Made by a program: the position numbers and the translations under genes. Below are positions 294-19,196 of a stretch of DNA of 64,000 nt, in pieces. Source of the stretch: Chloroflexota bacterium. Its GTDB lineage: Bacteria > Chloroflexota > Anaerolineae > Aggregatilineales > Phototrophicaceae. The notes under the pieces were generated by a model. It was not told the DNA's origin. It ran no database searches and saw only the letters and a program-made list of their open reading frames with translations. The stretch covers positions 1-64,000 of the forward strand of contig JAPPFH010000110.1 of the NCBI GenBank assembly GCA_028875185.1, given 5' to 3'. Positions within the stretch are counted from its first letter, which is position 1. Each line of letters begins with the position of its first letter.

Positions 294-322
294 TTGACAG
301 CGCATTGTCAATTGTCTACAAT
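294..322 (+). promoter_or_regulatory. Promoter with overlapping GntR-type operator upstream of oppD
   Basis: TTGACA (294-299), a 17-base spacer and TACAAT (317-322) form a near-consensus sigma-70 promoter. The palindrome ATTGTCTACAAT (311-322) sits on the -10 box, and the 18-mer TTGTCAATTGTCTACAAT (305-322) is repeated exactly on the minus strand at 19166-19183. ATTGT-N2-ACAAT resembles operators of FadR-subfamily GntR regulators, and such a regulator is encoded at 15346. Binding here should block transcription of the ATPase genes. The expected start near 329 also rules out the earlier in-frame start codons at 242, 323 and 326. Confidence 0.75.
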
Positions 323-355
323 ATGATGACATCGCCCAGCGACCGACTGCGCGCT

Positions 356-1381
356 ATGCCTAGCGAATCAAGCAACGTACTCGAAGTACGCGATCTCAGA
401 ACCTATTTTCAGTTGCCCGAGGGTACGCTCAAAGCGGTTGACGGCGTCGACCTGACGATCGCTCCCCACCAGACGGTTGGCGTCATTGGCGAATCCGGCT
501 CGGGCAAGAGCGTCACAGCGCAATCGATTTTGCGGATTGTGCCACCGCCTGGCGCCATCGAAACCGGGGAAATCATATTGCGGCGCAAAGACGGCAGCGC
601 GGTCGATATAGGCAAGCTGAATCCGCGCAGCGCCGAAATCCGCGCCATTCGCGGCGCCGAAGTCTCGATGGTGTTTCAGGAGCCGATGACCAGTCTTTCG
701 CCCGTCCATACGATAGGCGCGCAAATCGTCGAGGCCATTCGGCTACACATTGAAAACGACAAGAAAAAAGCCAAGCAGTTGGCGCTGGATATGATTAATC
801 GCGTCGGCATCTCGAACCCGAAGCAGCGATTCGATGAATATCCGCATCAGTTATCGGGCGGAATGCGCCAGCGGGCGATGATCGCGATGGCGCTATCATG
901 CAGCCCCTCCCTGCTCATTGCCGACGAACCCACAACCGCGCTTGATGTCACCGTACAGGCGCAGATCCTGGAATTGATGAAGGAATTGCAGGCGCAATTC
1001 GGCATGGCGATCATGTACATCACACATGATCTGGGCGTCATCGCCGAGATCGCCGACGAAGTCAACGTCATGTATCTCGGTCGCGTGGTGGAACGCGCCT
1101 CGACGGTGGAGCTGTTCAAGAATCCGCGGCACCCGTATACGCAGCGACTGCTGAAATCCATTCCGCGTTTGGGCGGTCGTGGACGCGGGCGTCTCGACGC
1201 CATACGCGGCAATGTGCCGGTGCTGATGAATCCGCCGGCTCAATGCGGCTTCGCCTCACGCTGCGATGATTTCATCAGCGGAAAGTGCGATGCCGCCGTT
1301 CCATCGCTGGTGCATATGGGAAGCGATCACTATGCGCGCTGCTTCTTGCACAGCGAAGAAAGCGAGCCGGTTTATGCCTGA
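356..1381 (+). CDS. Opp/Dpp-family ABC transporter ATP-binding protein (OppD-like)
   Basis: First ATPase of an oligopeptide-family importer, 341 residues from the chosen ATG. Visible motifs are Walker A GESGSGKS (45-52), Q-loop FQEP (107-110), signature LSGGM (166-170), Walker B LLIADE with catalytic Glu191, and the switch His224. The C-terminal oligopeptide-transporter tail has four cysteines (297, 303, 311, 329), a pattern that binds an iron-sulfur cluster in some structurally known OppD/DppD-type ATPases. The start at 356 was preferred because the promoter's -10 box ends at 322. The gene overlaps the next ATPase by 8 bases. Its permeases and binding proteins lie 6-13 kb away in the same locus, and the context points to oligosaccharide rather than peptide import, as is known for other members of this family. 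Confidence 0.9.
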   Translation: MPSESSNVLEVRDLRTYFQLPEGTLKAVDGVDLTIAPHQTVGVIGESGSGKSVTAQSILRIVPPPGAIETGEIILRRKDGSAVDIGKLNPRSAEIRAIRGAEVSMVFQEPMTSLSPVHTIGAQIVEAIRLHIENDKKKAKQLALDMINRVGISNPKQRFDEYPHQLSGGMRQRAMIAMALSCSPSLLIADEPTTALDVTVQAQILELMKELQAQFGMAIMYITHDLGVIAEIADEVNVMYLGRVVERASTVELFKNPRHPYTQRLLKSIPRLGGRGRGRLDAIRGNVPVLMNPPAQCGFASRCDDFISGKCDAAVPSLVHMGSDHYARCFLHSEESEPVYA

Positions 1382-2426
1382 GCCGGAAGCGACAAGAACG
1401 AAAGAGATCGGCGAAGTCCTGTTAGAGGTGCGTGAGCTCAAGAAGCATTTCCCAATTGAGAAGGGCTTCTTTCGCTCGGTGCAGGGCCAGGTGAAGGCGG
1501 TCGATGGCGTCAGTTTCACCATTCGCGAAGGCGAAACTTTCGGACTGGTCGGGGAATCCGGCAGCGGCAAGACGACCTTGGGGCGCTGCATCGTGCGCGG
1601 CATTGAGCCGACTTCGGGGCAAATCATGTTCCGGCTGCCCAATGGCGACGAGGTCGATATTGCCACGTTGGACAAGAAGGGATTGCGCGCCGTGCGCAAG
1701 CACTTTCACATGATCTTCCAGGATCCGTATTCTTCGCTTGATCCGCGCATGTCGGTGCTTGATATTATCTCCGAGCCGATACGCAACAATAAGCTCCTTT
1801 CCGATTCGCGCGAGATTCAAGATCGCGTGCGAGAATTGATGGACAAGGTCGGCTTGGATATTCAGCATCTCAATAGATATCCGCATGCCTTTTCCGGCGG
1901 CCAGCGGCAGCGCATCGGCATTGCCCGCTCGCTGGCGCCAAGCCCGCTGCTGATCGTTTGCGATGAGGCTGTGTCTGCGCTTGATGTCTCGATTCAGGCG
2001 CAGATTCTCAATCTGCTGGAGGATTTGCAAGAAGAATTTAATCTTACTTTTCTTTTCATCGCGCATGATTTATCGGTCGTTGAGCATATTTCCGACCGTG
2101 TCGGCGTGATGTACGTTGGCCAACTGGTGGAGTTGGCTGATACCGACTCTTTATTCACCTCGCCCAAACATCCATATACCGAGGCGCTGCTTTCAGCCGT
2201 GCCGACAACCGATCCCGAAATCAAGATGGATCGGATCGTTTTGCCCGGCGAGGTCGCCAATCCGGCGGCGCCGCCAACCGGCTGTTATTTCCACCCACGC
2301 TGCCGATACGCGCAGGCGATATGCGCCGAAGAAGCGCCGGCGTGGACAAAGGTCGCCAACGGTCATTACGCCGCCTGTCACTTCGCCGATGAGTTGGAAC
2401 TGCGCGGCGTCGAGAATGAAAGCTGA
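1374..2426 (+). CDS. Opp/Dpp-family ABC transporter ATP-binding protein (OppF-like)
   Basis: Second ATPase of the heterodimeric pair, 350 residues from the ATG at 1374, which overlaps the stop of the upstream ATPase. Walker A GESGSGKT lies near residues 60-67, followed by a Q-loop FQDP, signature FSGGQ and Walker B ending in CDE. After the Walker B it reads AVSALD where family members usually have PVSALD. The C-terminal tail again carries four cysteines in the CYFHPRC...C...C arrangement. Translation is probably coupled to the upstream gene. With that partner it should energise the permeases at 13098-15251. Confidence 0.9.
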   Translation: MPEPEATRTKEIGEVLLEVRELKKHFPIEKGFFRSVQGQVKAVDGVSFTIREGETFGLVGESGSGKTTLGRCIVRGIEPTSGQIMFRLPNGDEVDIATLDKKGLRAVRKHFHMIFQDPYSSLDPRMSVLDIISEPIRNNKLLSDSREIQDRVRELMDKVGLDIQHLNRYPHAFSGGQRQRIGIARSLAPSPLLIVCDEAVSALDVSIQAQILNLLEDLQEEFNLTFLFIAHDLSVVEHISDRVGVMYVGQLVELADTDSLFTSPKHPYTEALLSAVPTTDPEIKMDRIVLPGEVANPAAPPTGCYFHPRCRYAQAICAEEAPAWTKVANGHYAACHFADELELRGVENES

Positions 2427-2785
2427 TGGATTTACTGATCGTCTTCGTTATCGCCTCGGTGATTGGCGCCGTTATGATCGCCTGGGTCATCATTTGGACA
2501 GCCAATCGCGCTTCGGCATCGGCGATAACGCGTCACTTCAAAGCCAGCGAGTATATCCTGGAGACGGGAAAGCCGCCGCCTGATTGGCTCGCGGCGCCAA
2601 TATGGAGACGCCTGCGGGCTAAGGCGGATACGTCAAACAGCGAAATTTCCCTACTTGCGCGCCTTGATGAATTGATTCGTTTCTTCGAACACTGCAGCTT
2701 CTACGAAGATGAATTCGCGCGTGAACAGCATCTGTCTCAATTGGAGGGCATACGGCGAGCCTGGCAGTCGGGCGAGGTCCGCTAG
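2426..2785 (+). CDS. Small single-span membrane protein of the opp operon, function unknown
   Basis: 119 residues. One hydrophobic segment covers about residues 3-25 and is followed by a charged soluble region rich in Arg and Glu, so it is likely anchored with a cytoplasmic tail. The ATG overlaps the stop of the upstream ATPase (TGATG), which indicates translational coupling. I do not recognise a family. Its operon position suggests an accessory or assembly role for the transporter, but nothing in the sequence proves it. It converges on the minus-strand gene that ends four bases later. Confidence 0.7.
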   Translation: MDLLIVFVIASVIGAVMIAWVIIWTANRASASAITRHFKASEYILETGKPPPDWLAAPIWRRLRAKADTSNSEISLLARLDELIRFFEHCSFYEDEFAREQHLSQLEGIRRAWQSGEVR

Positions 2786-2788
2786 CCA

Positions 2789-4579
2789 TCACTCCAGCCT
2801 GACGATCGCCCACAATTCGAGACTTGGCACGCGAACGACTGTATCCGCGTCAATTGCGCCGCATTGGATTTCGCGCGGCGATTCCTCCGGCGCGTAAAGC
2901 GTCGCGCGAGAAAATGTTCTGCCCAGCAAGCCGCCCACTAGCGTCAATTTGAGATTTCGCACGGCGCCATACGTATCCGACTCGATGTCGTAGTTGCTGT
3001 TGAGCAGATGACAGATGACTGGCGCGTCAACATTATCTGGCTGCTGGCGAATCAGCGCGCTGATATTATCGGCGCCGCTTACGCGAACGCTGTGCCCGGC
3101 TCGGTTGAGCAGATCGCTCGCTCCCGACCAGGTGATGAGGCGATCGCCCGCCGCCTTGAGCTTGGCTTCCTGCGCCTCGGTTAAGTATGACGGTTCAAAT
3201 CGCACAACCGCGCGGTACGGGCTGAGGTCCGCCTCAAGCAGTTGGTCTTCAACCCAGTCGTCGCCGGCGACGATGAGCCGAAAGGGGACATTGGCGCGGC
3301 TAAGGGCGATGCAAGCCTCAGCCAGTTCGGTTTTGGGCGCGCTGCGATTCTGCCCGCCGAGATGGCCGCCGCTCAAACGATCGCCCAGGTATTGCCGCAC
3401 CGCATTGTTGCTGAAAATTAGCGCGACCTCCGCGGCAGATTCGTATCCATCAAACAACTCCGGATAATCGCGAATGAAGTGATAGAGCGGTTCATAATCT
3501 CCCGGCTTGCTGTGATACCAGCAGTCGGGTTCGCCCGCGTTGCGTATCGTCCACATCTTGTCCGGCGCCATGAACACATGCCCATGGGCATAAGCCTGCG
3601 CGATCCAGAGGCGGATATGCCCCGGCCGGTCCTTGAGGCGGCAGGGCTCGAAGGCGCGCGGCACGCCCGTTATCGCCATCACTCGATCCAGGGCGTCCGC
3701 CAGTTTGAGGGCGTAGACCGCGTCGGTCGGCAGGATCTCTTCTTCCGGCGCCAGATATTGCATCTCATTGGTGTAGAAATCGTGGGCGTCAACAGCGTAA
3801 ATGAACTCCGCCCAATAGAAAGGCGAATTGGAACTCATTGGCACACGCTCGCCAAATTCCTGAGCGTAGCGCTTGAAAGCGCGAAAGAGTGTGTTGACCT
3901 CTCGCCACTGGTAATCAAAGTATTGTTTAGCCAAGGGGATGACCGGTGGGAAAGCCAGTATTTCCGCCCGATAACGCTCGTCCGTGACGCCATGAGACAG
4001 GAGAAAATCACGGTAATCAAAGGACTCGATATCATCGATTCCGTGCGATTCAAGTTCGGCCTCGCTCATTTCTGAATTGATATACTCGCGAAAACCCGCC
4101 ATACAGTGTTCGCAGAAGCAGCCGCCGTAGCGCGCGTTAAGCGAGGCAATCGTTGGAATCGCCGAATCGATCATGAGCCAATCCGTTCCCGCCTCCATCA
4201 CGCGGCGCAATTGGTCCATCAAGTAATGCCGATAACCAGGCGCATTGGTGCAGAAGTAATACGGAGGGTGCCCTTTGTAGCGGTGCTCCCACCAGGTTAT
4301 CGCCGGCCGGTCATTGAGATCGCGCACGGTCGATTCCATGTAGTTGGAATCGAAATCGATCATGCCCATCCAATCGGCATCCAGCTCGACGCGCCCCTGA
4401 AACTTGACGCCGCAGCGATGCGCCTCGTCGACATCGCGCATCATCTCCTCGTCGGGCGGCAGGCCGCGGCGGTCCGGCTCGGGCAGGAAACCCCAACCCA
4501 AGCCAGTCGCTCGATAGCGCCGATAGACATCCATGCCGCATGGACGGGTAATCAGCACATCAGATCGTTGTAAAGCCAT
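2789..4579 (-). CDS. Putative glycoside hydrolase-like protein (TIM barrel plus GATase-like domain)
   Basis: 596 residues, no signal peptide. The N-terminal two thirds look like a (beta/alpha)8 barrel: repeated strand-loop segments such as the one ending in WLMIDSA, then a zinc-binding-like GGCFCEHC pair of cysteines near residue 155, as seen in GH42-related and uncharacterised glycosidase-like proteins. The last 200 residues (from about EVALIFSNN) resemble the class-I-glutamine-amidotransferase-like trimerisation domain that follows GH42 barrels. It is the third gene of a minus-strand run behind a GH117 and a sulfatase, with a GGAG-type ribosome site. Activity on a sugar chain of the same substrate is likely; the exact family and linkage cannot be read from sequence alone. 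Confidence 0.6.
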   Translation of the reverse strand: MALQRSDVLITRPCGMDVYRRYRATGLGWGFLPEPDRRGLPPDEEMMRDVDEAHRCGVKFQGRVELDADWMGMIDFDSNYMESTVRDLNDRPAITWWEHRYKGHPPYYFCTNAPGYRHYLMDQLRRVMEAGTDWLMIDSAIPTIASLNARYGGCFCEHCMAGFREYINSEMSEAELESHGIDDIESFDYRDFLLSHGVTDERYRAEILAFPPVIPLAKQYFDYQWREVNTLFRAFKRYAQEFGERVPMSSNSPFYWAEFIYAVDAHDFYTNEMQYLAPEEEILPTDAVYALKLADALDRVMAITGVPRAFEPCRLKDRPGHIRLWIAQAYAHGHVFMAPDKMWTIRNAGEPDCWYHSKPGDYEPLYHFIRDYPELFDGYESAAEVALIFSNNAVRQYLGDRLSGGHLGGQNRSAPKTELAEACIALSRANVPFRLIVAGDDWVEDQLLEADLSPYRAVVRFEPSYLTEAQEAKLKAAGDRLITWSGASDLLNRAGHSVRVSGADNISALIRQQPDNVDAPVICHLLNSNYDIESDTYGAVRNLKLTLVGGLLGRTFSRATLYAPEESPREIQCGAIDADTVVRVPSLELWAIVRLE

Positions 4580-4599: not shown

Positions 4600-6246
4600 C
4601 TATATCTTCGTAACATAGGTGTAGTACGCGCCACGTTCGCGCCCTGCGTTCGCATCGCTTAGGGATGTGAACAACCGGGTTGCGCCAGCGCGCAGTTCCA
4701 TTTCAAACGTTACATGGCTGAGGGCTTCAGAGACATCTTTGGTCCAAGCCTTATCGCCAAGCGTGAGGCTGGCGCTGGTTATGTTCATCGGCTTGTCAGC
4801 CTCTCGCGGATGCGTACGCAATTCAATATGGTAATGACCGGGTTGCGCAACATCAATCCACCAGAATCCAGTCGCGTCATAAGCTGGATCATCTATCCAG
4901 CTTTGCCTCCAGGGAACGCGGCCTTCCGTCGGATGCCAATCGCGCGCCGATAGCAGCGCCGGATTCTCGTAGGTCGCGCCAACTGGGATCGCGACCATCT
5001 GCGTGAAACAGTCCTGCATTTCATTCCAAAATAGATCGTAGTCGCGGCGAAGCGCGGCCGCCACTTGAGGGAAGTCAGGCGCGACATCATGCGCCTGCGC
5101 CCGATCGCGCTCGACATCGTAGAGTTCCGTCTCGTTCGCCAATCGCCAGCGCCCATTGAGCACAGCCGTCTGATGCCATTTGCGCGGCTGGTCGGGCTGG
5201 AGCTGCACGACGATTGAACGCTCCGGCAATTCATCGACATCACCGCGCGTTAAGCCAGCCAGGCTGATGCCGTCAAATGCGATTTCAGGAGCGCTTTGCA
5301 GATCGCAGAGCTCGATCAGAGTTGGCAGAATATCAATATGCGCAGTCAGTTGGCTGACGTTTCGCTCAGTGGGCAAATGCCGTGGCCAGCGCATGAAGAA
5401 GCTCACCTGATGACCGCCATCGTAAAGCGAGCCCTTTTTGCCGCGCAAGCCTGCGTTAAAGCCAGCGCCAGTCGCTGGATCAAAGCCGGCCGCGGTGCCA
5501 TGATCCGCGGTGAAGATAACCAGCGTTCGTTCATCGAGGTGCAGCGCCTTCAATCGCGCGAAAAGTCGACCCATATTTTCGTCGAAATTGGCGATCATGC
5601 CGTAGAATTTGGCGCGTTCCTCCGGGATGCCCTGATCCAAATATGGCGCGGCGTAACGGTCCGGCACGATATGCGGCGCGTGCATGGCGTTCGGCGCCAG
5701 ATATATGAAAAAGGGCGCCTGTTTATTCGCATCAATAAATTCGAGCGCAGCGTCGAAGAAAACATCGGTGCAGTAGCCTTCGCAGCGCGTTGGCTCGCCA
5801 TTATGAAAGTACACATCGTCGACATAATTATTGCCCCAGTAGTCTGGCAGCTCGCCGATGCCGCCGCCGCGGTGACAGAGCGTTTCTTCGAAGCCGCGAT
5901 ACTGCGGGGCGAAGGGATAATTGTCGCCAAGATGCCACTTGCCAAACATGGCGGCGCGATAGCCCTCCGCGGCGAATACGTCAGCCATGGTCACCGCCGC
6001 GGGATTCAGCAGATGGCGTCCCTGAATTACATGCCATACGCCGTTGCGAGCGGCGTATTGCCCGGTCAGCAGCGCGGCGCGCGAGGGCGAGCAGAGTGGA
6101 TCGTGATGATGGTTGTCGAGCTGTACGCTTTCGCGCGCCATGCAGTCGAGATTGGGCGTTTTGAGGACGGGATTGCCGTGGCAGCCAATATCGCCATAGC
6201 CTTGATCATCGGTGATGACGAAGATGACATTTGGCGCGGCGGGCAT
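4600..6246 (-). CDS. Type I (formylglycine) sulfatase
   Basis: 548 residues. The maturation signature CSPSR (Cys52 to Arg56) is intact, so Cys52 would be converted to formylglycine. Asp13 and Asp14 of ITDDQG and a later TADHG provide the calcium site. The product should remove sulfate esters from a small substrate, most plausibly a sulfated oligosaccharide given the GH117 neighbours. The protein starts MPAAPNVIFV with no signal peptide, which is unusual for bacterial glycan sulfatases and implies a cytoplasmic enzyme acting after import. GGAG lies 8 bases before the ATG. The gene follows GH117 by 26 bases and precedes the glycosidase-like gene by 20. No formylglycine-generating enzyme or anaerobic maturase lies in the window. 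Confidence 0.9.
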   Translation of the reverse strand: MPAAPNVIFVITDDQGYGDIGCHGNPVLKTPNLDCMARESVQLDNHHHDPLCSPSRAALLTGQYAARNGVWHVIQGRHLLNPAAVTMADVFAAEGYRAAMFGKWHLGDNYPFAPQYRGFEETLCHRGGGIGELPDYWGNNYVDDVYFHNGEPTRCEGYCTDVFFDAALEFIDANKQAPFFIYLAPNAMHAPHIVPDRYAAPYLDQGIPEERAKFYGMIANFDENMGRLFARLKALHLDERTLVIFTADHGTAAGFDPATGAGFNAGLRGKKGSLYDGGHQVSFFMRWPRHLPTERNVSQLTAHIDILPTLIELCDLQSAPEIAFDGISLAGLTRGDVDELPERSIVVQLQPDQPRKWHQTAVLNGRWRLANETELYDVERDRAQAHDVAPDFPQVAAALRRDYDLFWNEMQDCFTQMVAIPVGATYENPALLSARDWHPTEGRVPWRQSWIDDPAYDATGFWWIDVAQPGHYHIELRTHPREADKPMNITSASLTLGDKAWTKDVSEALSHVTFEMELRAGATRLFTSLSDANAGRERGAYYTYVTKI

Positions 6247-6272: not shown

Positions 6273-7358
6273 CTAGACCCAGCCCAGCGATTGATCATGG
6301 CGCTCCCAGCGAATGAGGAAATCCCAGGGTTCTTCGATCGACGTAATGCCGAGCGCATCCTGGCTCTGCCTAGTGGCGTGCGGGCTCCACTGGGTGACAT
6401 GGCTCAAGCCCCAGGTCAAACCCGACAGGGGCTCGGCGTTTTCCGAATCCGAGACGCGCAAGGCGCCAGACGCTTGCGGCGGATCAATGATCGTCGCTTT
6501 CAGCGCAAAGTTTAGCCCGTCGGGCGCGAACTGAATCGTGTTTTTCTCCGGACCGCAGCGGGTCAATAGCGCGCCGACGCCGCCAGCGAAATTCCAGACC
6601 ATTACTTCGTGCCCGCTGTTGGTTATCGGGTTAAGCGGCGACTTCTCGTAAGGACCCAGGGGATCGTCGGCGATGGCGACGCCCCACTTGCTCTCCATAT
6701 TGCTGTGCCCGATGCCTTCGCCTTTGAAGTAGAGCCAAAAACGACCTTCGCGGAAAAGCAGCGCCGGGTCGTGGACGCGCAAGCTGTCGAAAGACCCTTG
6801 CTCGGTTGCTTCCAGCGGGTGGGCGCGTTCATCAAGCACGCCAGAAGGATCCGGTTCGACAACTGGCGCGGGCATCTTCGTCCAGGGTCCATGCGGCGAA
6901 TCAGCCCAAGCCAGGGCGATGGATTCTGGCGTGCCGCGCCAGGTCGGCGCTCGCGTCACCTGATACACCAAATAAAAGCGATCGTCATGCGCCAACACAT
7001 CGGGCGTAAAGATGCTGCGTTCGTCGTAGGCGCCGGCTGGTCCGCGCTCGACTGCCGGTCCTTGCTCTTGCCAGGCTCGGCCGTCCGCCGACGTGGCGTA
7101 CCAGACATCGGTCAGATCCCAGGGCATCGCCGGCAGGGTATCGGTGGCGCGCACATGGCCAACCGGCGCGCGAGGATGATCACCGCGGGTATACCATACG
7201 TAGTACAAGCCATCGACTTGGATGATGCAACTCGGATCACGGCGGACGATCCCCTTTTCGTAACCCAAGCCCTCAATCGTCGAATAGCGGAACTTGGTGA
7301 ACCAGGGGTTGTCCGCATCTCGCGTCTTGAAGCGCTGCATGGCCGCGCTTTGCGGCAT
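6273..7358 (-). CDS. GH117-like glycoside hydrolase
   Basis: 361 residues, no signal peptide. It shows the features I associate with GH117 (exo-acting 3,6-anhydro-L-galactosidases of agar breakdown): the N-terminal dimerisation motif SxAxxR (residues 4-9), RRDPS with Asp41, VYYVWYTR-like first blade, a later HDP, and NSGHE holding the His-Glu pair of the active site. The fold is a five-bladed beta-propeller. It leads the minus-strand enzyme run and has a GGAGG site 8 bases before the ATG. GH117 members differ in specificity, so anhydrogalactose release is a family-based inference, not a reading of the sequence. Confidence 0.8.
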   Translation of the reverse strand: MPQSAAMQRFKTRDADNPWFTKFRYSTIEGLGYEKGIVRRDPSCIIQVDGLYYVWYTRGDHPRAPVGHVRATDTLPAMPWDLTDVWYATSADGRAWQEQGPAVERGPAGAYDERSIFTPDVLAHDDRFYLVYQVTRAPTWRGTPESIALAWADSPHGPWTKMPAPVVEPDPSGVLDERAHPLEATEQGSFDSLRVHDPALLFREGRFWLYFKGEGIGHSNMESKWGVAIADDPLGPYEKSPLNPITNSGHEVMVWNFAGGVGALLTRCGPEKNTIQFAPDGLNFALKATIIDPPQASGALRVSDSENAEPLSGLTWGLSHVTQWSPHATRQSQDALGITSIEEPWDFLIRWERHDQSLGWV

Positions 7359-7436: not shown

Positions 7437-9437
7437 CTACATATCGCTCTCGAAATACCACTGCTCCGGCATAAACATGACCCACTGCCGGTAGCTGAAG
7501 CTCCACATGCCGTCAGTATCGTTCGGCGGCGTATTCTTCAGGCTCTTCTTGAAGAGCAAAGGCTGCGGCGGCCGCTGCACGGTGCCTATCTGATACAAAC
7601 CGCGGAACGTCATGTCATGAAACTGCTTGCCGATTTCCAGATACGACTCCGAGCCGTAGGGTTGCTGCAGCCACAGCTGGCTGAGATCCCAAAGTTCTTT
7701 GATATCGGCGGGCGGTTCACTGCCGCGTTCGCCGCCGCTGTTCAGCCAGTCGGTCCATTCTTTGGAACCGGCGCGCGCGCCCCAATGCGGTCTGATATTG
7801 TTAATCGCGCCGGAGAATTCGCCGATATCGACAATGTCCAATCCCCAGCCGGCGATGTCGTGGCCGCCAGTACCGCGCAGTTCGTTGTAATAGCTGCGCT
7901 CGATGAGCTTGAGCTGAGTCTTGACGCCGACCGCGTTCCAATAAGAAACAACGAGCTCGGCGATCTGCCCCCAGGCTTCTTCGGGCACGGCGACCTGCAT
8001 GTTGATGAACAAGGTTTCGCCATCGGATCGCAGGCGGTTGCCATCGCCGTCGCGCGCGTCCAAACCCATCTCGTCCAGCAATGCGTTCGCCTGATCCGGG
8101 TCGTAATCGGCGAAGTAATCAGTCATCCAGGGCTCATAAAAGCTGGAATCCGGCGTCGGCGCCGATTGAGACGGCGTCGCCAAACCGAAGTAGATCAGCT
8201 CGTTGATCTCACTGCGGTTGATCGCCAGCGACATCGCCTGGCGGAAGCGCGCATCGTTAAAAATCTCGCGCATCGCCGGGTCGGGATGGGTCAAGTTGAA
8301 CATCATGCTGTATTCGTTGCCGCGATTGTAGGTCACCAGCGCGGTGCGATAACCGCCCGCTTCTTCGTTGTCGCGGTAGGTCGGCACACTCAGCAATTTG
8401 CCCCAGCCGAAGTGGCTGTATTCGCCGGCTATCGCGCGCAGATCCTGCACTTGCAGATCTTCGACGAGCACACGCCGCAGCGTGTCGGTATAGGGAAGCT
8501 GATTGCCCGCGATATCCACTTTGAAGAAATAGGGATTGCGCTCAAAGCGCTTGTTGCCGAAGGAATCCTCGCTCGCGTATACAAAGGTATTCAAGGTCGG
8601 AATGCCGACGACGGTGTCGGTAGCGGTTGTGCCCGTATTGGTATTCGGACGCAGACGCGCGTTCAATAGCTGCGCCCAGCCGTCAAATCCGGCTTCCGCC
8701 GCCAGATCGTTCGCATTCTCGTTGTAGTCGATGTGGAATTGCTTGAAGTAATGCGCGGCACGGAAGCCCCGGTGGCGCGGATTGCTCGCCATGCGCACGA
8801 TCATTGAGGGATGTGGCTGTGAGAACGTGTAGCGGAGCGTCGTCTCATCAATGATTTCCAGCAGCGGTTTCTCGTTGCCGGGCCGCCATTCGCCCGGTAT
8901 CCCGCCCGTGACCTCTTCATTCCACAGGACATCTTCAAACCAGAATCGGAAATCCTCTGAGGTGAAGGGATGGCCGTCCGACCATTTATGCCCGTCTCGC
9001 AGATGAATCGTCAGCTGCGTTTGGTCCTCAGACACGTCATAAGCGGCGGCGATATTGGGGATGATCGTCTGCAAGTCCGTGTTGATGGTGAAGAGCTTCT
9101 GCATCACCATTTCGGAGACATCCCAGCCGCAGCAAGTTGGGCTGGTTGAAGGTCCCGCGAGCTCGCCGCCATAGACGCCGATCGCGTCCAGCGGTTCCAC
9201 AACGACCGGCTCAGCTGGCAAACGTTCTTCCACGGGCGGCAGCTCACCAGCAGCTGCGCGCTCCGCCAGCATCGGCGCCTCGCTGTACATGCCGATGGAT
9301 TGCCCGGTCGCCGCTTCGTATGCCGCTGGCGATCCGAACTGCTGCGGATAAGTCTTTTCGCTGATGGTCTGCCCCGAAGACGCGCTTCCAATTACAAGTG
9401 CAAGCAAAAGCGCAAGCGTTAGCCATTTTCTATTCAT
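7437..9437 (-). CDS. ABC transporter solute-binding protein, family 5 (second paralogue)
   Basis: 666 residues with an N-terminal signal peptide (hydrophobic stretch about residues 5-20, cleavage likely near SASSGQ). No lipobox cysteine is visible. The family-5 signatures are present: LTIHLRDGHKWSDGHPFT near residue 145 and FRQAMSLAINRSEI in the second lobe. It is a close paralogue of the gene just upstream (9519-11528), with the same order of motifs and the same C-terminal ending MFMPEQWYFE. Long family-5 binding proteins of this type serve oligosaccharides as well as peptides. It follows the first paralogue after a terminator-like hairpin, so it may be expressed at a lower level. Confidence 0.9.
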   Translation of the reverse strand: MNRKWLTLALLLALVIGSASSGQTISEKTYPQQFGSPAAYEAATGQSIGMYSEAPMLAERAAAGELPPVEERLPAEPVVVEPLDAIGVYGGELAGPSTSPTCCGWDVSEMVMQKLFTINTDLQTIIPNIAAAYDVSEDQTQLTIHLRDGHKWSDGHPFTSEDFRFWFEDVLWNEEVTGGIPGEWRPGNEKPLLEIIDETTLRYTFSQPHPSMIVRMASNPRHRGFRAAHYFKQFHIDYNENANDLAAEAGFDGWAQLLNARLRPNTNTGTTATDTVVGIPTLNTFVYASEDSFGNKRFERNPYFFKVDIAGNQLPYTDTLRRVLVEDLQVQDLRAIAGEYSHFGWGKLLSVPTYRDNEEAGGYRTALVTYNRGNEYSMMFNLTHPDPAMREIFNDARFRQAMSLAINRSEINELIYFGLATPSQSAPTPDSSFYEPWMTDYFADYDPDQANALLDEMGLDARDGDGNRLRSDGETLFINMQVAVPEEAWGQIAELVVSYWNAVGVKTQLKLIERSYYNELRGTGGHDIAGWGLDIVDIGEFSGAINNIRPHWGARAGSKEWTDWLNSGGERGSEPPADIKELWDLSQLWLQQPYGSESYLEIGKQFHDMTFRGLYQIGTVQRPPQPLLFKKSLKNTPPNDTDGMWSFSYRQWVMFMPEQWYFESDM

Positions 9438-9518: not shown

Positions 9519-11528
9519 TTAGCCGTCACCCTCGAAGTACCACTGTTCGGGCATGAACATAACCCACTGCCGGTAGGTCCAACTCCATTGCCCGGTGGTG
9601 TCATTCGGCGGCGTGTTCTTCAAGTTTGTCTTGAAGAGCAGCGGCTGCGGCGGGCGTTGAATCGTACCGATTTGATACAGTCCGCCCATCGACAAGCGAT
9701 AGAATTCCTTGCCCAATTCGAGCCATTCATCGGAGCCGTAGCTCGCTTCGAGGAAGGCTTCGCCGGCCGCCCAAAGATCCTTGATCTCTTGCGGCGGCTC
9801 TTCTCCGTCTTCGCCATCGGATTGCATCCACTGGCGCCAGAGATGACCGGATGCGCGCGCGCCCCAGTGCGGCCGCATATTTGCCAGACCGTTAGCGACT
9901 TCACCGATATCCAGCATGTCTGTGCCCCAAGCCGCCATATCCACTTGATTGCCATCGCGCAATTCGCGGTACAAGCCTATTTCGATGAGCTTGTAGCTCG
10001 TCTTGACGCCGACGTCATTCCAGTACGAGGTGATCAGCTCGCCGATTTGGCGCCAGGAATCTTCCGGCACCGAGACCTGGAAGTTGATGAAGAGCGTTTC
10101 GCCATCGGGCCGCAGGCGGAAGCCGTCGCCGTCGCGCTGATCCAAGCCCATTTCGTCCAGCAGTTCATTCGCAAGATCTGGGTCGTATTGCGCGAAATAT
10201 CCGGGCATCCAGTCCTCGAAGAACAGCGAAGACGGCACGGGCGAATTCGCCGATGCGTTCGCCAAGCCAAAGTAAACCAGCTCATTGATTTCATCGCGAT
10301 TTATCGCAACCGACATCGCTTGACGGAAACGGATATCCCAAAAGATATCGCGCAGTTCCAGGTTCGGAGTCGTGAAGTTGAACATGATCGAGTATTCGTT
10401 GCCGCGGCTGTATTCGGCTAGAGCGGTGCGATAGCCGCCGGCTTCTTCATTTTCGCGATAGGTCGGGAAGCTCAAGAGCGTGCCCCAGCCATAGTGGCTG
10501 TATTCGCCAGCGATGCCCTTGAGATCTTGGACTTGCAGGTCCTCGACCAGGATGCGGCGCAGCGTGTCGGTGTATGGCAACTGGTTGCCCGCGGTATCGA
10601 CCTTGAAGAAGTAAGCGTTGCGCTCGTAGTACTTGTTGCCGAAGGAATCTTCGCGGACGAAGACGAAGGTGTTCAACGTTGGCGCGTAGGGATCAGTCTC
10701 CGAGCCGAGGTTCCAGGTGAAGTTATAGGGGCTCATCTTGGCGTTGAACATCTGGACCCAGTCTTCAAAGCCGCTCTCAGCCGCCAGCTCGTTAGCGTCT
10801 TCGTTGTAGTCGATATGGAACTGTTTGAAGTAATGAGCGGGGCGGAAGCCGCGCCGGCCCACTTCGCTGCCGACAGCGATAAGCAATGTTGGGCGCGCCT
10901 CCGCATAGGTCATGCGGATGGTTGTTTCATCCAGAATGTCAATCTGCGGCAATTCGCCCTTCAGCACCCAGGGACCGCCAGGCGAAGGCGTCAAGTCGGA
11001 ATTGCCTAGAATGTCTTCAAAGAAGAAACGGAAGTCTTCGGTGGTGAAGGGTTCGCCGTCCGACCACTTGTGACCTTCGCGCAGATGGAAGGTGAAGGTG
11101 GTTTGATCGTCCGAAACCTCATAGGCGCGGGCGATGTTGGGGATGATGGATGTCAGGTCGGTGTCGATGGTGAGCAGCTTCTGCAGGCGCATTTCGAGCA
11201 CGTCCCAGCCGCAGCAGACCGGGTTGGTCGTGGGACCGGCCAGTTCGCCGCCGTATTCGCCTATCGCTTCGAGCGGTTGCACGACAACCGGTTGCGCAGG
11301 CAAGCGCTCTTCAAGCGGCGGCAATTCCCCAGCCGCGACTCTATCCGCCAGCATCGGCGCTTCGCCCCACATGTCAATGCTGTTGCCAGTGGCGGCGGAA
11401 TAGGCGTCCAGGTCAGCGTATTGGAATGGATAGACCAGATCACCTTCGCTCATATCCTGCGCGATGGCGGCGCCCGAAAGCAAGACCAAAGCAAGGACAA
11501 GTAGCAAGCTAAACATGTTGCGTTTCAT
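9519..11528 (-). CDS. ABC transporter solute-binding protein, family 5 (first paralogue)
   Basis: 669 residues. The signal peptide is clear (MKRNMFSLLLVLALVLLSG, then AIA-QD as a likely signal peptidase I site) and there is no lipobox cysteine. Family-5 motifs include FHLREGHKWSDGEPFT and FRQAMSVAINRDEI. It is strongly similar along its full length to the next gene, so the pair arose by duplication. GAGAGG precedes the ATG. An operator-like palindrome cluster lies about 165-190 bases upstream (11690-11715), which puts it in the proposed GntR regulon. It should capture the substrate outside the membrane for the OppB/C-type permeases at 13098-15251. Confidence 0.9.
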   Translation of the reverse strand: MKRNMFSLLLVLALVLLSGAAIAQDMSEGDLVYPFQYADLDAYSAATGNSIDMWGEAPMLADRVAAGELPPLEERLPAQPVVVQPLEAIGEYGGELAGPTTNPVCCGWDVLEMRLQKLLTIDTDLTSIIPNIARAYEVSDDQTTFTFHLREGHKWSDGEPFTTEDFRFFFEDILGNSDLTPSPGGPWVLKGELPQIDILDETTIRMTYAEARPTLLIAVGSEVGRRGFRPAHYFKQFHIDYNEDANELAAESGFEDWVQMFNAKMSPYNFTWNLGSETDPYAPTLNTFVFVREDSFGNKYYERNAYFFKVDTAGNQLPYTDTLRRILVEDLQVQDLKGIAGEYSHYGWGTLLSFPTYRENEEAGGYRTALAEYSRGNEYSIMFNFTTPNLELRDIFWDIRFRQAMSVAINRDEINELVYFGLANASANSPVPSSLFFEDWMPGYFAQYDPDLANELLDEMGLDQRDGDGFRLRPDGETLFINFQVSVPEDSWRQIGELITSYWNDVGVKTSYKLIEIGLYRELRDGNQVDMAAWGTDMLDIGEVANGLANMRPHWGARASGHLWRQWMQSDGEDGEEPPQEIKDLWAAGEAFLEASYGSDEWLELGKEFYRLSMGGLYQIGTIQRPPQPLLFKTNLKNTPPNDTTGQWSWTYRQWVMFMPEQWYFEGDG

Positions 11529-11689: not shown

Positions 11690-11715
11690 ATTGTAAATTG
11701 TACATTGTTGACAAT
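11690..11715 (-). promoter_or_regulatory. GntR-type operator upstream of the binding-protein gene
   Basis: Contains the perfect palindrome ATTGTTGACAAT (11704-11715) preceded by ATTGTA and ATTGTACATT half-sites. The 26 bases match those at 12973-12998 at 23 positions. It lies between the 3' end of the enolase-family gene and the 5' end of the 9519-11528 gene, so it most likely controls the latter. Confidence 0.65.
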
Positions 11716-11754: not shown

Positions 11755-12876
11755 CTAGCTCTTTTCATATTGTCGCAGCTGCTCCCAATCGAATTGGACG
11801 CCATGTCCTGGCGCGTCCGATGCTTCCATGACCCCGTCCCGAAGCGTCGGCGGGTTCTTGATGAAACGCTCCAAGCCAAAGCTGTGCACCTCAAGAAAGG
11901 ACGCGTTAGGTATCGCCGCCAACAAGTGAAGGTGCAGTTCATGTACACCGTGAGAAGTGACAGGCAGATTATGCGTGTAAGCCAGATTTGCCACGCGCAT
12001 CCAGTTGGTAATGCCGCCGATATTAGAGACGTCGGGCTCGGGAAAGGCAATCATGGCGTCTTCGATCGAATGACGAAACTCGTAGACCGTATGCAGGTTC
12101 TCGCCGGCCGCGATTGGCAAGCCTCCCTCGGTCGCGATGCGCGCCATGCCCTTGTAGTCGTCGGGAATAGTGGGCTCTTCAAACCAGTAGACGTCAAACT
12201 CGCGGAATTTCCGCGCGGCGCTGATGGCTTGTTCGACGCTGTAGCGCATGTTGGCATCCACCATCAGCGGCGTATCGGACCCGATGCATTGACGCACGGC
12301 GCGTACGCGTTCGACGTCTTCCGATAACCTGGCGCGCCCCACCTTGATCTTGATCGCGCGGAAGCCTTTCCGCAGGTTGCAGCGCGTCTGTTCAACCAAT
12401 TCATCAGGCTCCAATTGCAAGTCGATGCCGCCCGCGTAGGCGCGCACTTCGCGCGAATAGCCGCCGAGCAGCTTCCAAAGCGGCAAGTCCAAGCGCTTGC
12501 AGCGCAAATCCCAAAGCGCGATATCGACCGCGGACATCGCAAAGGCGACCAAGCCGCCGCGTCCAATATAGTGCATGCGCCACCACATACGGTCCCAGAG
12601 CTGTTCAATGCAATTGGCGTCCGCGCCCAGAAGCGCCGATACCAGATTCAGCTCAATCAGCGATCGAATAGCGGCGCCGCCGCAGCCAATGGTGTAGGTG
12701 TAACCATAACCAGCCAATCCACAATCCGTCTCCAGCTTGACGAGCACGACTTCAAAGTGGGTCATCACGCCATGCGATGCATCGGTCATAGGATGCGTCA
12801 GCGGGAGATGATAATGCTTGGTCTCTACGCTTTGGATGATCAACTCACTGCCTTTAGCCGCCATGATTGTCGCCAT
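11755..12876 (-). CDS. Enolase-superfamily (mandelate racemase subgroup) sugar-acid dehydratase or cycloisomerase
   Basis: 373 residues from the ATG at 12876; an internal ATG at 12864 is also possible, and neither has a strong ribosome site. The C-terminal barrel shows the full catalytic set: KIKVG (Lys-x-Lys), then metal ligands in VDAN, FEEP and AGEN, DVSNIGG, a His in TSHGVHE, and LEVH. These residues fit the mandelate racemase subgroup, which includes sugar-acid dehydratases (talarate/galactarate, fuconate) and 3,6-anhydro-L-galactonate cycloisomerase. With GH117 enzymes around, the cycloisomerase role is attractive but unproven. Product would be a 2-keto-3-deoxy sugar acid. An operator lies about 100 bases upstream. 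Confidence 0.85.
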   Translation of the reverse strand: MATIMAAKGSELIIQSVETKHYHLPLTHPMTDASHGVMTHFEVVLVKLETDCGLAGYGYTYTIGCGGAAIRSLIELNLVSALLGADANCIEQLWDRMWWRMHYIGRGGLVAFAMSAVDIALWDLRCKRLDLPLWKLLGGYSREVRAYAGGIDLQLEPDELVEQTRCNLRKGFRAIKIKVGRARLSEDVERVRAVRQCIGSDTPLMVDANMRYSVEQAISAARKFREFDVYWFEEPTIPDDYKGMARIATEGGLPIAAGENLHTVYEFRHSIEDAMIAFPEPDVSNIGGITNWMRVANLAYTHNLPVTSHGVHELHLHLLAAIPNASFLEVHSFGLERFIKNPPTLRDGVMEASDAPGHGVQFDWEQLRQYEKS

Positions 12877-12972
12877 ATACGCGGACGCGCCGCTATCGCC
12901 GCCGCTAGACTGCTCTCGCGCCTGTGCCAATCCAGCGCGAATGATAACGCATTCGCCCATGATATACAAAAG

Positions 12973-12998
12973 ATTGTACAGTGTATATTGTTGACAAT
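12973..12998. promoter_or_regulatory. GntR-type operator in the divergent enolase/permease region
   Basis: ATTGTTGACAAT (12987-12998) is a perfect ATTGT-N2-ACAAT palindrome, with an ATTGTACAGT half-site 14 bases to its left. The block is 23/26 identical to 11690-11715. It overlaps the -35 box of the plus-strand permease promoter and lies upstream of the minus-strand enolase-family gene, so one site could control both directions. Confidence 0.7.
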
Positions 12999-14093: not shown

Positions 14094-14099
14094 CCGAGG

Positions 14100-15345: not shown

Positions 15346-15954
15346 ATGCCAGCGAATGAAATCTTCCGAACACTTCCCGAGCAAATCGCGGCGCGTCTGC
15401 AGCAGGATATACTAGGGGGCCAAATAACGCTTGGCGAACCTTTGCGCGAAGCCGATCTCTCGGAACGTTTTGGCGTCAGCCGCGGTCCGGTGCGCGAAGC
15501 TTTTCGTCTGCTCGTGCAGCAGGGTCTGCTCGTGCTGGAACCGAATAAGGGTGTGCGCGTGGCGCAGAACCCCAGCGTCGAGGTGCGGCCGCTCGTGGTG
15601 CAACTGCGGCGAACGATTGAAGTCTTCGTGCTCGAAAGCATCTTCGACCGCATCACCGACAGCGACATAGCAGTCTGGTCCAATATCTTGAACGACATCA
15701 AGGCGGCGTGCGAAGCGAACGATCTGAACGCGCTGACCGACCACGACCTTCGATTTCATCAGGCCATCATCAAGAGCCATGACGACCGCGATATCTTTAC
15801 GCTTTGGCAGCCTATAGCGATGCGCATGATGATGCAATACAATCGGCTGGACGACTTAATGGAGAGCTACCGCGAGCATAAGCGAATCCTGGACGCGATA
15901 CGCGTCCGCGACAAGGCGGCGGCGATACAGGCGCTTTCCACCAATATCCAATAG
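15346..15954 (+). CDS. GntR-family transcriptional regulator with FCD domain
   Basis: 202 residues from ATG 15346, chosen because GAAGGA sits 7 bases upstream; a much longer in-frame extension has no ribosome site and no family similarity. The winged helix is DLSERFGVSRGPVREAFRLL, classic for GntR. The C-terminal helical domain carries DHDLRFHQAII and later His residues of the FCD/FadR metal-binding fold. Regulators of this subfamily usually sense sugar acids or other carboxylates and bind short palindromes. Four ATTGT-N2-ACAAT sites flank the transport and enzyme genes, so this is the obvious binder. The protein ends slightly short of many FCD members. Confidence 0.9.
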   Translation: MPANEIFRTLPEQIAARLQQDILGGQITLGEPLREADLSERFGVSRGPVREAFRLLVQQGLLVLEPNKGVRVAQNPSVEVRPLVVQLRRTIEVFVLESIFDRITDSDIAVWSNILNDIKAACEANDLNALTDHDLRFHQAIIKSHDDRDIFTLWQPIAMRMMMQYNRLDDLMESYREHKRILDAIRVRDKAAAIQALSTNIQ

Positions 15955-17084: not shown

Positions 17085-17855
17085 ATGAATGTGATGGAGC
17101 AGTTTCGACTTGATGGCTTGACCGCGCTAGTCACCGGGGCGCGCCGCGGCATCGGCAAGGCGATGGCGCTTGGATTGGCGGAAGCGGGCGCCGACATCAT
17201 CGCCGTCAGCGCGAATCTGGAAGCGAATGGCAGCGCAATCGAGAGAGCGGTCGCGGCGCGCGGTCGCGCCTTCGCTGGCTATCGCTGTGACTTTTCCGAT
17301 CGCGACGACCTCTACCGTTTCATCAACCAAGTGAATGCCAATCACCCCGCCATCGACATCCTGGTCAATAACGCCGGCACGGTTCTGCGCGAGCCAGCCG
17401 AGCGGCACAGCGACGACTATTGGGACAAGATCATCAACACGAACCTCAGCGCCCAGTTTGTGCTCAGCCGCGAAATTGGCAAAGGAATGCTGGCGCGCGG
17501 CCGCGGCAAAATCATCTTCACCGCCTCGCTGCTCACCTTCCAAGGCGGCATCACCGTGCCCGGCTACGCGGCCAGCAAGGGCGGCGTTGGTCAATTGACC
17601 AAAGCGCTCGCCAACGAATGGGCGGGACGGGGCGTGCAAGTGAATGCGATCGCGCCCGGTTATGTGCGCACCGATGTCACCGAAGCGCTGCAAAATGACA
17701 CGGAGCGTTCTCGTTCTATTCTCGAGCGCATACCGGCCGGGCGCTGGGGCGAAATCGACGATTTCAAGGGTCCAGCAGTCTTCCTCGCTTCGTCCGCTTC
17801 GGACTTCGTCAATGGCGAGATTCTGGTGGTCGACGGCGGCTGGATGGGACGTTGA
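17085..17855 (+). CDS. KduD-like short-chain dehydrogenase
   Basis: 256 residues. TGARRGIG (cofactor loop), NNAG, the catalytic Ser in ASLLTFQGG and YAASK give a complete classical SDR. The pattern SLLTFQGGITVPGYAASKGG and the ending IPAGRWGE...VNGEILVVDGGW match 2-deoxy-D-gluconate 3-dehydrogenase (KduD), which interconverts keto groups on 2-keto-3-deoxy sugar acids. That fits as a step after the enolase-family enzyme at 11755. The start codon follows the stop of the MDR gene directly; GGAG in the end of that gene serves as ribosome site. Confidence 0.88.
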   Translation: MNVMEQFRLDGLTALVTGARRGIGKAMALGLAEAGADIIAVSANLEANGSAIERAVAARGRAFAGYRCDFSDRDDLYRFINQVNANHPAIDILVNNAGTVLREPAERHSDDYWDKIINTNLSAQFVLSREIGKGMLARGRGKIIFTASLLTFQGGITVPGYAASKGGVGQLTKALANEWAGRGVQVNAIAPGYVRTDVTEALQNDTERSRSILERIPAGRWGEIDDFKGPAVFLASSASDFVNGEILVVDGGWMGR

Positions 17856-17875
17856 CCAATCGACCGCAATTCATA

Positions 17876-19114
17876 CTAGACGCCGATAGTCGGGCGATCC
17901 GCTTCGGCTTGCTCCGCCAGGATGCGCGCGCGCCATTCATCGCTCAAACGCGCTTGTGGCTGGAACCAGGCCGCTTCATGCCAATGCAAGTTGCTGCCCT
18001 TGAACTCGGGCCGCTCGCTATCGCGTGACAGCGCGCAATCGAAGCGAACGATATACAAGTCATCATAGGCGGCTTCGGTTTGGGGAATGATATGACTCAG
18101 CCCCCAAGTGATGCCGCGTCCGTCGCCATCATCAGCGAAGGCATCAGGGCAGAAAGGACCGGGCGCGTGCGGCGCTAGCTGAACATGCGCCTTGGGCGCG
18201 AAATTTAAGCCGTCCTGCGCGAATTGCACCGTGTCTTTCTCTGGCCCATCCTGGATGAGCAAAGCCGCGATGCCGCCTTCGTAGGGCCAGAGCATCGTTT
18301 CGTGCCCGGAATTCGTCACCGGATTCAACGTTGACTTGATGTAGGGACCTTCGGGATTCTCGGCGATGGCGACGCCTTGCGCGCGCAGCAGGTTGCCCGG
18401 CGATTTGTCGGCTGGCGAGCCTTTGTAATATACCCAAATCTTCCCTTTGTAGACCAGCGGATAGGGATCATGAATGGCGCAGCTATCCCATTCGCCTTCC
18501 GCGCCCTGCTCCACGACCGGGCGTTCCAGACGCGTCCATGGCCCATCAGGCGAATCCGACCAAGCCATGCTGACGTTGACGCAGTCGTTCTGGCGCCACA
18601 TGGTCGTGAAACACTGATAATAGAGATAGTATTTTCCGCCGTAGACGAGGATGTCGGGCGTAGAAAGCGAGCGATCGCCGTAATTGCCTTTGGGCGCGCG
18701 CGGCACCGCCACGCCTTGCTCCTCCCAGTTGAAGCCGTCGCTTGAGGTAGCGTAGCAGATGTCCGCCAGGTCCCAATCGACGATTGGCGTTTCATCATCG
18801 CCCTGGTCGATATTGAAGCGGCCAACGGGCTTGCGCTTGGTGCGCCGGCGCGTATACCAGACATAATACGCGTCGCCGATTTTGAGCACCTTGGATGGGT
18901 CGCGGCGCGAGACCGACAATGCGGATTCATCTCTGCCGATGCCGGTGACCGGCGAATATTTGAAGACGGTATAGAAAGGATTGCCGATATCCTGCTCCGG
19001 CGTCCACATATCATAAAGGCGATGCATCGCCGCGCTTAGGGGCCGATCGGTCGGTTTCTCCGGCTGCAATCGGCTGGGGAATGCGGCGGTCCGTCTGTTG
19101 TTATCTTTGCTCAT
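17876..19114 (-). CDS. GH117-like glycoside hydrolase
   Basis: 412 residues, no signal peptide, strong GAGGAGGAG before the ATG. SxAxxR motif at 27-32, Asp72 in RRDPS, YYVWYTRR, IHDPYPLV and TNSGHET follow in the GH117 order. An N-terminal extension of about 20 residues and a C-terminal tail distinguish it from the 361-residue copy at 6273. It has its own operator-controlled promoter (19166-19194) identical in core to that of oppD. Converges with the SDR gene. The two other GH117 genes of the locus suggest action on different linkages or chain ends. Confidence 0.82.
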   Translation of the reverse strand: MSKDNNRRTAAFPSRLQPEKPTDRPLSAAMHRLYDMWTPEQDIGNPFYTVFKYSPVTGIGRDESALSVSRRDPSKVLKIGDAYYVWYTRRRTKRKPVGRFNIDQGDDETPIVDWDLADICYATSSDGFNWEEQGVAVPRAPKGNYGDRSLSTPDILVYGGKYYLYYQCFTTMWRQNDCVNVSMAWSDSPDGPWTRLERPVVEQGAEGEWDSCAIHDPYPLVYKGKIWVYYKGSPADKSPGNLLRAQGVAIAENPEGPYIKSTLNPVTNSGHETMLWPYEGGIAALLIQDGPEKDTVQFAQDGLNFAPKAHVQLAPHAPGPFCPDAFADDGDGRGITWGLSHIIPQTEAAYDDLYIVRFDCALSRDSERPEFKGSNLHWHEAAWFQPQARLSDEWRARILAEQAEADRPTIGV

Positions 19115-19165
19115 ATCTCCTCCTCAAAATTGGTAGGCGGCAGTCGTCAGCGGTATAATCGCTGG

Positions 19166-19196
19166 ATTGTAGACAATTGACAAAGTCCTGTCAATT
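19166..19196 (-). promoter_or_regulatory. Operator-covered promoter of the GH117 gene in a divergent region
   Basis: On the minus strand TTGACA (19194-19189), a 17-base spacer and TACAAT (19171-19166) form a promoter in which ATTGTCTACAAT covers the -10 box. Layout and 18 core bases equal those at 305-322. An added inverted repeat, AATTGACA-N6-TGTCAATT (19175-19196), lies across the spacer. The same region precedes the plus-strand GMC gene, so both may be controlled. Confidence 0.75.

Follow-up and report, generated by a model that had tools for sequence, protein, structure and literature searches.

Four ATTGT-N2-ACAAT palindromes as predicted operators of a GntR-type regulon at an agar-type galactan-like locus in a Chloroflexota bacterium

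The window analyzed here, which is the first 64 kb (positions 1 to 64,000) of the 107,287-base contig JAPPFH010000110.1, belongs to the genome of a Chloroflexota bacterium (GCA_028875185.1) amounting to 4,372,157 bases in 158 contigs and 93.8% complete. Between about 356 and 23314, it carries a locus encoding parts of an Opp-type ABC transporter, two solute-binding proteins, a sulfatase, dehydrogenases, and a GMC oxidoreductase. The subject of this study is a set of four perfect palindromes at this locus (S1 to S4), considered as the candidate operators of GntR1, the FCD-type GntR regulator encoded among these genes.

Genes and predicted operators of the locus

305..322, + strand: operator S1, TTGT-CA-ATTGT-CT-ACAAT, exact match, upstream of oppDF
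356..1381, + strand: oppD-like ABC transporter ATPase (Pfam ABC_tran and oligo_HPY on the open reading frame (ORF) 242-1381; start at 356 likely)
1266..2426, + strand: oppF-like ABC transporter ATPase (Pfam ABC_tran and oligo_HPY)
2789..4579, - strand: alpha-agarase-like protein of 596 amino acids (aa) (PDB 9m0b, E 2e-44)
4600..6246, - strand: sulfatase (PF00884, E 3.4e-58)
6273..7358, - strand: 3,6-anhydro-alpha-L-galactosidase-like glycosidase, GH117 type (PDB 3r4y, E 7e-98; 3p2n; 4ak5)
7437..9437, - strand: solute-binding protein SBP1 (Pfam SBP_bac_5)
9519..11528, - strand: solute-binding protein SBP2 (Pfam SBP_bac_5)
11690..11715, + strand: operator S2, ATTGTAA-ATTGTAC-ATTGTTG-ACAAT, exact match, upstream of SBP2
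11755..12882, - strand: enolase-superfamily enzyme, 3,6-anhydro-L-galactonate cycloisomerase-like (PDB 5xd7, E 2.8e-116)
12973..12998, + strand: operator S3, ATTGTAC-AGTGTAT-ATTGTTG-ACAAT, exact match, divergent region
13062-14093 and 14100-15251, + strand: oppB- and oppC-like permeases (Pfam)
15346..15954, + strand: GntR1, FCD transcription regulator (Pfam, AlphaFold2, fold matches)
16068-17084, + strand: Zn-dependent dehydrogenase (similarity)
17085-17855, + strand: short-chain dehydrogenase/reductase, nearest to 2-deoxy-D-gluconate 3-dehydrogenase (similarity)
17876..19114, - strand: gh117b, GH117-type glycosidase b (PDB 4u6d, E 4.3e-113; 4ak5, E 1.5e-73)
19166..19183, - strand: operator S4, TTGT-CA-ATTGT-CT-ACAAT, exact match, between gh117b and gmc
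19205..20824, + strand: gmc, GMC-family oxidoreductase (Pfam)
20828..23314, + strand: 828-aa protein with apparently tandem GH117-type domains (PDB 3r4y on residues 23-356, 4u6d on residues 422-800)

The reading of the enzymes was changed by the structure matches of the enolase-superfamily protein, the proteins labeled GH43, and the 596-aa protein, which pointed towards an agar-type galactan. The Pfam label GH43, which covers two stretches of the 828-aa protein, was replaced in three proteins by 3,6-anhydro-alpha-L-galactosidase in line with the PDB matches, and the family of these three anhydrogalactosidase-like proteins is one that we take to be GH117. GH117 is given as the family of a neoagarobiose hydrolase (PMC7000632). 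The 596-aa protein matched no Pfam family at E 0.001. The enolase-superfamily protein scored 258.9 of the 500 bits required for the NCBIfam talarate/galactarate dehydratase family, and this name was set aside since it fell below the cut-off and was outscored by the cycloisomerase structures; 5xd7 ranks second here, behind the "putative racemase" 2ovl (E 9.3e-122). Judging by similarity to solved structures, homologs of the anhydrogalactosidase and of the cycloisomerase are both present in the locus, of which the part from 2789 to 23314 resembles a catabolic island of the agar/porphyran type (3,6-anhydro-L-galactose). The hint at sugar acids given in the preliminary description can accordingly be made more specific, the pathway indicated being that of 3,6-anhydro-L-galactose.

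The palindromes in the window and in the genome

The exact sequence ATTGT-N2-ACAAT occurs in the 64-kb window at 311-322, 11704-11715, 12987-12998, and 19166-19177, as the preliminary description had it; 100 shuffles averaged 0.05 such sites, and four were never obtained. The two pairwise resemblances pointed out there are also exact, since the 18-mer at 305-322 is identical to the reverse complement of 19166-19183, and 23 of the 26 bases at 11690-11715 are identical to those at 12973-12998. At all four sites, TTGT-N2-ACAA fits the GT-N2/3-AC core of the FadR subfamily (PMC4494728).

A scan of the whole genome yielded 17 exact palindromes, 13 of which lie outside the window locus. Of these sites, 4/17 fall within 18.9 kb of the 4,372,157 bases; the Poisson probability of this is about 1e-6, for a region picked after the sites had been seen. 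Ten of the 13 others lie within ORFs of at least 148 aa in longest-ORF calls (in C3, C5, C18, which has two, C25, C31, C33, C41, C98, and C111), although the C98 site is at the very start of its ORF, so that its intragenic placement is doubtful. The remaining three are located in an 81-aa ORF (C137), in an 87-aa ORF (C69), and in no ORF (C48). The intragenic sites and that in C137 were dropped as members of a regulon, while those in C69 and C48 occupy conserved promoter slots. With up to one mismatch, 112 places were found in the genome as compared with about 96 expected (the shuffle mean of 1.40 per 64 kb, scaled), which is no clear enrichment, and the bare palindrome with one mismatch was therefore ruled out as a means of finding the regulon.

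Conservation in related genomes

The genus sample consisted of 34 genomes, including the present one; being kin, they give dependent counts, which is partly offset in the half-site counts below by filtering for redundancy. In each slot, the best palindrome upstream of the orthologous gene was taken within the stretches retrieved, the present genome being included. It was exact in 19/22 genomes at S1 (one mismatch in G065 and G078, none found in G048), in 30/31 at S3 (one mismatch in G075), and in 31/33 at S4 (two mismatches in G047 and G091), while S2 was the least conserved site (17/30). The preservation of the sites in relatives suggests that they are binding sites of a regulator encoded by the locus.

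A GntR1 ortholog showing at least 74% identity is present in 32/34 genus genomes, including this one, and gh117b, with at least 72% identity, occurs in the same 32; neither gene was found in the two others, G063 and G076. In G048, which belongs to another genus, GntR1 has 60% identity, and exact S3 and S4 sites are kept despite the altered gene order around them. G047, a single genome that is 85% complete, has the cycloisomerase gene instead of gmc as the divergent neighbor of gh117b; it has no close GntR1 (best match E 5.2e-22), and the palindrome upstream of its gh117b is the one with two mismatches mentioned above. Among 45 loci from named genomes, the 21 with a GntR1 of at least 75% identity were retained and the 24 distant ones (L091-L114) left out. 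These 21 loci, titled as Anaerolineae, Chloroflexi, or Chloroflexota metagenome-assembled genomes, contain 48 exact palindromes as compared with 0.21 expected. To judge by their isolate codes, these genomes are presumably sponge-associated.

A predicted operator longer than the palindrome

The predicted operator is longer than the palindrome, TGT half-sites following one another every 7 bp, a feature that is new in this analysis. A third half-site, namely TGT exactly 7 bp before the TGT of the left arm, was found in 95/97 slot sites (19/19 at S1, 15/17 at S2, 30/30 at S3, as GTGT, and 31/31 at S4), and these proportions held when near-identical flanks were removed (16/16, 13/15, 22/22, and 29/29, respectively). 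It is present in only 1/11 other palindromes of the same genome and in 0/17 exact palindromes of the 30 loci carrying a DUF4438 gene. At the non-redundant sites, a further TGT occurs at -14 in S2 (15/15) and S3 (22/22), and a mirror ACA at +7 in 17/29 S4 sites. The extended motif TGT-N2-ATTGT-N2-ACAAT occurs exactly five times in the genome, at the four window sites and once in C41. The C41 copy was dropped as an operator because it falls within an open frame of 211 aa where the contig ends.

Promoter geometry

The right arm of S1, TACAAT, is the -10 box of an oppDF promoter, TTGACA-17-TACAAT at 294-322 (+ strand), the -35 box of which is at 294-299. The same arrangement is found at S4 on the - strand (TTGACA-17-TACAAT at 19194-19166), where the right arm is the gh117b -10 box and the -35 box is at 19194-19189, while S3 contains the -35 box (12991-12996) of the oppBC-gntR promoter, TTGACA-17-TAGAAT at 12991-13019 (+ strand), with a -10 box TAGAAT ending at 13019. 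These are the three best of the 19 promoter-like matches in 1-20000, which bears out the earlier statement that three of the sites sit on a -10 or -35 box. On the gmc side of S4, a promoter-like site, TTGGTA-18-TATAAT, is located at 19130-19159 (+ strand), just upstream of the operator. That each site lies at a promoter or upstream of a locus gene, as had also been stated, was borne out, with a correction as regards S2. This site is located between the enolase-family gene and the SBP2 gene, and its promoter assignment is ambiguous because the best sigma-70-like match there (10/12) is oriented away from SBP2.

The boxes are conserved along with the sites. Allowing up to two mismatches, a TTGACA-like box stands exactly 17 bp before TACAAT in 19/19 exact S1 sites (12 of them perfect), a -35-like box at 17 bp in 28/31 S4 sites (12 perfect), and a -10-like box at 17 bp in 23/25 assessable S3 sites; at spacings of 12-16 and 18-24, no box was found at S1 and 0-3 at S4, and the other spacings from 12 to 24 gave 0-2 at S3. 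Towards gmc, 24/31 S4 sites have a TATAAT-like box no more than 25 bp upstream of the operator.

Since three of the four sites overlap promoter boxes in their bases, the palindromes might be by-products of TTGACA and TACAAT boxes set in AT-rich sequence, having no role as operators. This is extremely unlikely, as the left arm of S1 and S4 is conserved although it lies outside the boxes, and the position of the third half-site relative to the promoter differs between S1/S4 and S3. The predicted operators lie over a -10 box, a -35 box, or a start region, which is the layout expected of repression by the blocking of polymerase. GntR1 might instead be an activator or a dual regulator, as CitO, another FCD protein, is described as an activator (PMC4746285), but S1 and S4 over the -10 box and S3 over the -35 box are in polymerase-blocking positions, and Atu1419 and AlkR are reported to repress from such positions (PMC7797058, PMC12042122); we regard this alternative as quite unlikely.

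The regulator GntR1

The preliminary description had placed an FCD-type GntR regulator between the sites, and Pfam confirmed it in the protein encoded at 15346-15954. GntR1 consists of 202 aa and matches both PF00392 (E 3.7e-18) and PF07729 (E 2.3e-17) above the cut-off, which makes it an FCD-GntR protein. Its AlphaFold2 model (mean pLDDT, the predicted local distance difference test score, 89.6) shows a winged helix followed by six helices (residues 81-200), as in the VanR group, with only about nine residues before the first helix and hence no N-terminal extension of the NanR type. Foldseek matched the model to FCD-type regulators, including 7u5q, TM0439, McbR, AlkR, Atu1419, and NanR.

Paralogous regulators and the C69 and C48 loci

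A search for FCD genes gave three in this genome: GntR1 and the proteins of C136 and C138. Two further paralogs occur in the genus: GntR2 (at least 68% identity to the G065 copy) in 15/34 genomes and GntR3 (40-44% identity to GntR2) in 9/34, no close copy of either being found in the present genome. An exact palindrome is located upstream of the GntR2 gene in 14/15 loci (G083 lacks it), with the third half-site on one side in 14/14. GntR3 adjoins the DUF4438 gene (Pfam) in 8/30 loci, and ATTGTCGACAAT is present exactly upstream of the latter in all eight. The 22 DUF4438 loci without GntR3 comprise six with an exact ATTGTCGACAAT, one (this genome) with another exact site, three with one mismatch, and 12 with none, two of which offered less than 300 bases for inspection. 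The spacer bases are mostly TG and CT in the case of GntR1, CT and AT in that of GntR2, and CG, without a third half-site, in that of GntR3. The spacer dinucleotide alone was ruled out as a specificity code, CT/AG being common to S1 and S4 and most GntR2 sites.

Given the palindromes at the GntR2 and GntR3 loci and the third half-site of the GntR2 sites, another FCD paralog (GntR2, GntR3, or the C136 or C138 protein) might be the main reader of the sites and GntR1 a mere neighbor. This is very unlikely: the search of this genome, which is 93.8% complete, gave only the three FCD genes, GntR2 has its best matches there in GntR1 (30%) and, across no more than residues 3-89, in the C136 protein (38%), no exact site occurs in the 8,265 and 11,001 bases retrieved around C136 and C138, and the 32/34 distribution of the locus is matched by GntR1 alone.

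The present genome keeps palindromes at loci of the GntR2 type (C69) and the GntR3 type (C48). The C69 site, ATTGTTTACAAT, which matches the extended motif with one mismatch, is located 152 bp before an epimerase gene; G068, G087, and G088 have an exact site with this same spacing, and G073 has one at 137 bp, all four genomes lacking GntR2. In C48, the site, ATTGTTGACAAT, is separated from the DUF4438 gene downstream of it by 47 bp. These two sites may reflect either a takeover by GntR1 or relics in decay. That GntR1 also controls both loci, GntR2 and GntR3 being absent, is possible but doubtful: the conserved C69 slot and the position of the C48 site speak for it, but C48 has no match to the extended motif even with one mismatch, and among the ten genomes carrying the epimerase gene without GntR2, five have an exact site, one has a site with one mismatch, and four have none, while the decay of an ownerless site would look alike. 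We suggest still more tentatively, as a rather unlikely general scheme, that a set of FCD regulators in this family of Chloroflexota shares one operator grammar (exact 7-bp TGT rows with one closing inverted ACA, the copy number and the spacer bases being locus-specific), and that regulons might have merged upon the loss of a regulator through takeover in trans by GntR1, with little change in the operators.

Both C69 (L028) and C48 (L027) are catabolic loci, with genes for an epimerase, Gfo/Idh, M20, glyoxalase, and DHDPS in the former and for DUF4438 and Ldh2 in the latter. In L169 (G063:C8), from a divergent genus member, C48-like and C69-like genes are united around a single operator and GntR2, an arrangement that is possibly ancestral.

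In counts in which a site may be scored on both strands, the extended motif gave one to six matches per genome in the 32 GntR1 genomes, none in G076, two in G063, which has GntR2 only, and at least one in 25/64 genomes outside the genus. Seven FCD proteins served as a panel for examining 26 of the matches listed outside the genus, over up to 5 kb each. An FCD gene was present in 15/26, the site being 26-306 bp 5' of the aligned part in 12 and on the 3' side in three. The closest panel members of these proteins were of the GntR2 type, not GntR1, and these places support the operator class rather than GntR1 by itself.

Proposed regulon

The four sites are very probably the operators of an autoregulated repressor of the FCD/VanR group, GntR1, that would control a regulon for the uptake and catabolism of red-algal galactan (3,6-anhydro-L-galactose). 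The single GntR regulon proposed in the preliminary description is supported by most of the computational tests (slot conservation, co-occurrence, and G048), as far as sequence comparisons go.

Several observations weigh against this reading. S2 is without a palindrome in 13/30 assessable genomes, G048 yielded neither S1 nor S2, and in G091 the S4 palindrome has two mismatches although GntR1 is present. The bare palindrome also marks the GntR2 and GntR3 loci, which means that GntR1 cannot be identified from the 12-mer alone, and no FCD gene was found in the retrieved stretch at 11/26 extended motifs outside the genus and at 6/6 further ones inside it. None of the scanned locus proteins matched an aldehyde dehydrogenase family, in a search that did not extend to the remainder of the genome. 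Lastly, D134, H138, and H178 are invariant in 33/33 GntR1 proteins (32 from the genus and that of G048), but the fourth ligand of the FCD metal pattern D/N-H-H-H, as described in two sources (PMC7797058, PMC6608401), is replaced by Asn200 in all 33, whereas the equivalent position is His in GntR2, GntR3, and the proteins of C136 and C138. The binding of metal or of an effector may differ as a result, and neither the effector nor the use of metal should be assumed in the case of GntR1.

What has been observed is where the sites lie, their conservation, their overlap with conserved promoter-like boxes, the co-occurrence of GntR1 with the locus, and the fold class; binding, repression, an effector, and a role for the extra half-sites are inferred along the following lines. 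When the inducer is absent, a GntR1 dimer would bind to ATTGT-N2-ACAAT, with further subunits probably placed on the TGT half-sites that follow next to it every 7 bp. The bound protein would cover the -10 boxes of oppDF (S1) and gh117b (S4), as well as the oppBC-gntR -35 box (S3), and gntR1 would therefore be autoregulated. Since S4 would also cover, on the other strand, the start region of the gmc operon, this one operator could silence a divergent pair of promoters. Release of the DNA would then follow from the binding of a pathway intermediate (3,6-anhydro-L-galactose, its acid, or 2-keto-3-deoxygalactonate) to the FCD domain.

Comparison with known systems

The closest precedents are as follows. 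AlkR, a VanR-group FCD protein of Pseudomonas aeruginosa SJTD-1, has an operator, ATTGTCAGACAAT, with identical arms located over -10 regions (PMC12042122), and its fold resembles the GntR1 model (9isw, TMq 0.81); it differs in having three bases between GT and AC, as compared with two here, and in controlling alkane oxidation and being released by acyl-CoA compounds (PMC12042122). Atu1419, a VanR-group FCD repressor of Agrobacterium, recognizes the palindrome ATGTATACAT, which has two bases between GT and AC and lies over -10 boxes, but the arms are different, the protein is a tetramer acting with looping, the proposed effector is methylenetetrahydrofolate, and zinc is held by one Asn and three His (PMC7797058). 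NanR of Escherichia coli, a GntR-type repressor of a sugar-acid pathway, binds cooperatively to repeated direct half-sites, but the repeat is (GGTATA)3 and the cooperativity depends on a 32-residue N-terminal extension that GntR1 lacks (PMC8012715). In 13 groups of the FadR subfamily, a weaker half-site occurs 7-12 nt from the center (PMC4494728); here, it is at about 10 nt and nearly invariant (95/97), with a further one about 17 nt from the center in S2 and S3. Given these precedents, the present case belongs to a known class: it would be an ordinary kind of genetic switch, which is well supported, with an unusually regular and conserved row of half-sites.

In Vibrio EJY3 and Streptomyces coelicolor, the breakdown of agar sugars likewise involves a cycloisomerase-type enzyme for 3,6-anhydro-L-galactonate, but the first step described there is catalyzed by an NADP-dependent enzyme of the aldehyde dehydrogenase type, which has no counterpart among the locus proteins scanned here, and the present locus differs in its Opp-type uptake, its GMC oxidoreductase, and its predicted FCD-GntR control (PMC9706016). 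No title among the open-license literature matches listed for the operators, regulons, locus, and host describes this regulon.

These sites outline a regulon that can be put to the test in a Chloroflexota genus represented by 34 species genomes, and tie it to agar-type sugars. The nearly invariant 7-bp rows provide a clean system for studying the role of the extra half-sites of the GntR family, which Suvorova et al. (2015; PMC4494728) left to experiment, and the set of paralogs raises the question of how regulators sharing an operator stay separate or capture each other's genes.

Other features of the window

At the contig end, positions 16-57 form a perfect inverted repeat (20 nt, with a loop of 2 nt), part of which recurs at 215-236 as a perfect inverted copy of 22 nt; a dispersed repeat may have interrupted the assembly here. 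At 47196-63058, very large membrane proteins of 1961, 903, 673, and 1317 aa are encoded in series: in a scan of the 1961-, 903-, and 1317-aa proteins, DUF2298 was found in two and a PMT_2-type glycosyltransferase domain likewise in two, and the last protein also showed NHL repeats.

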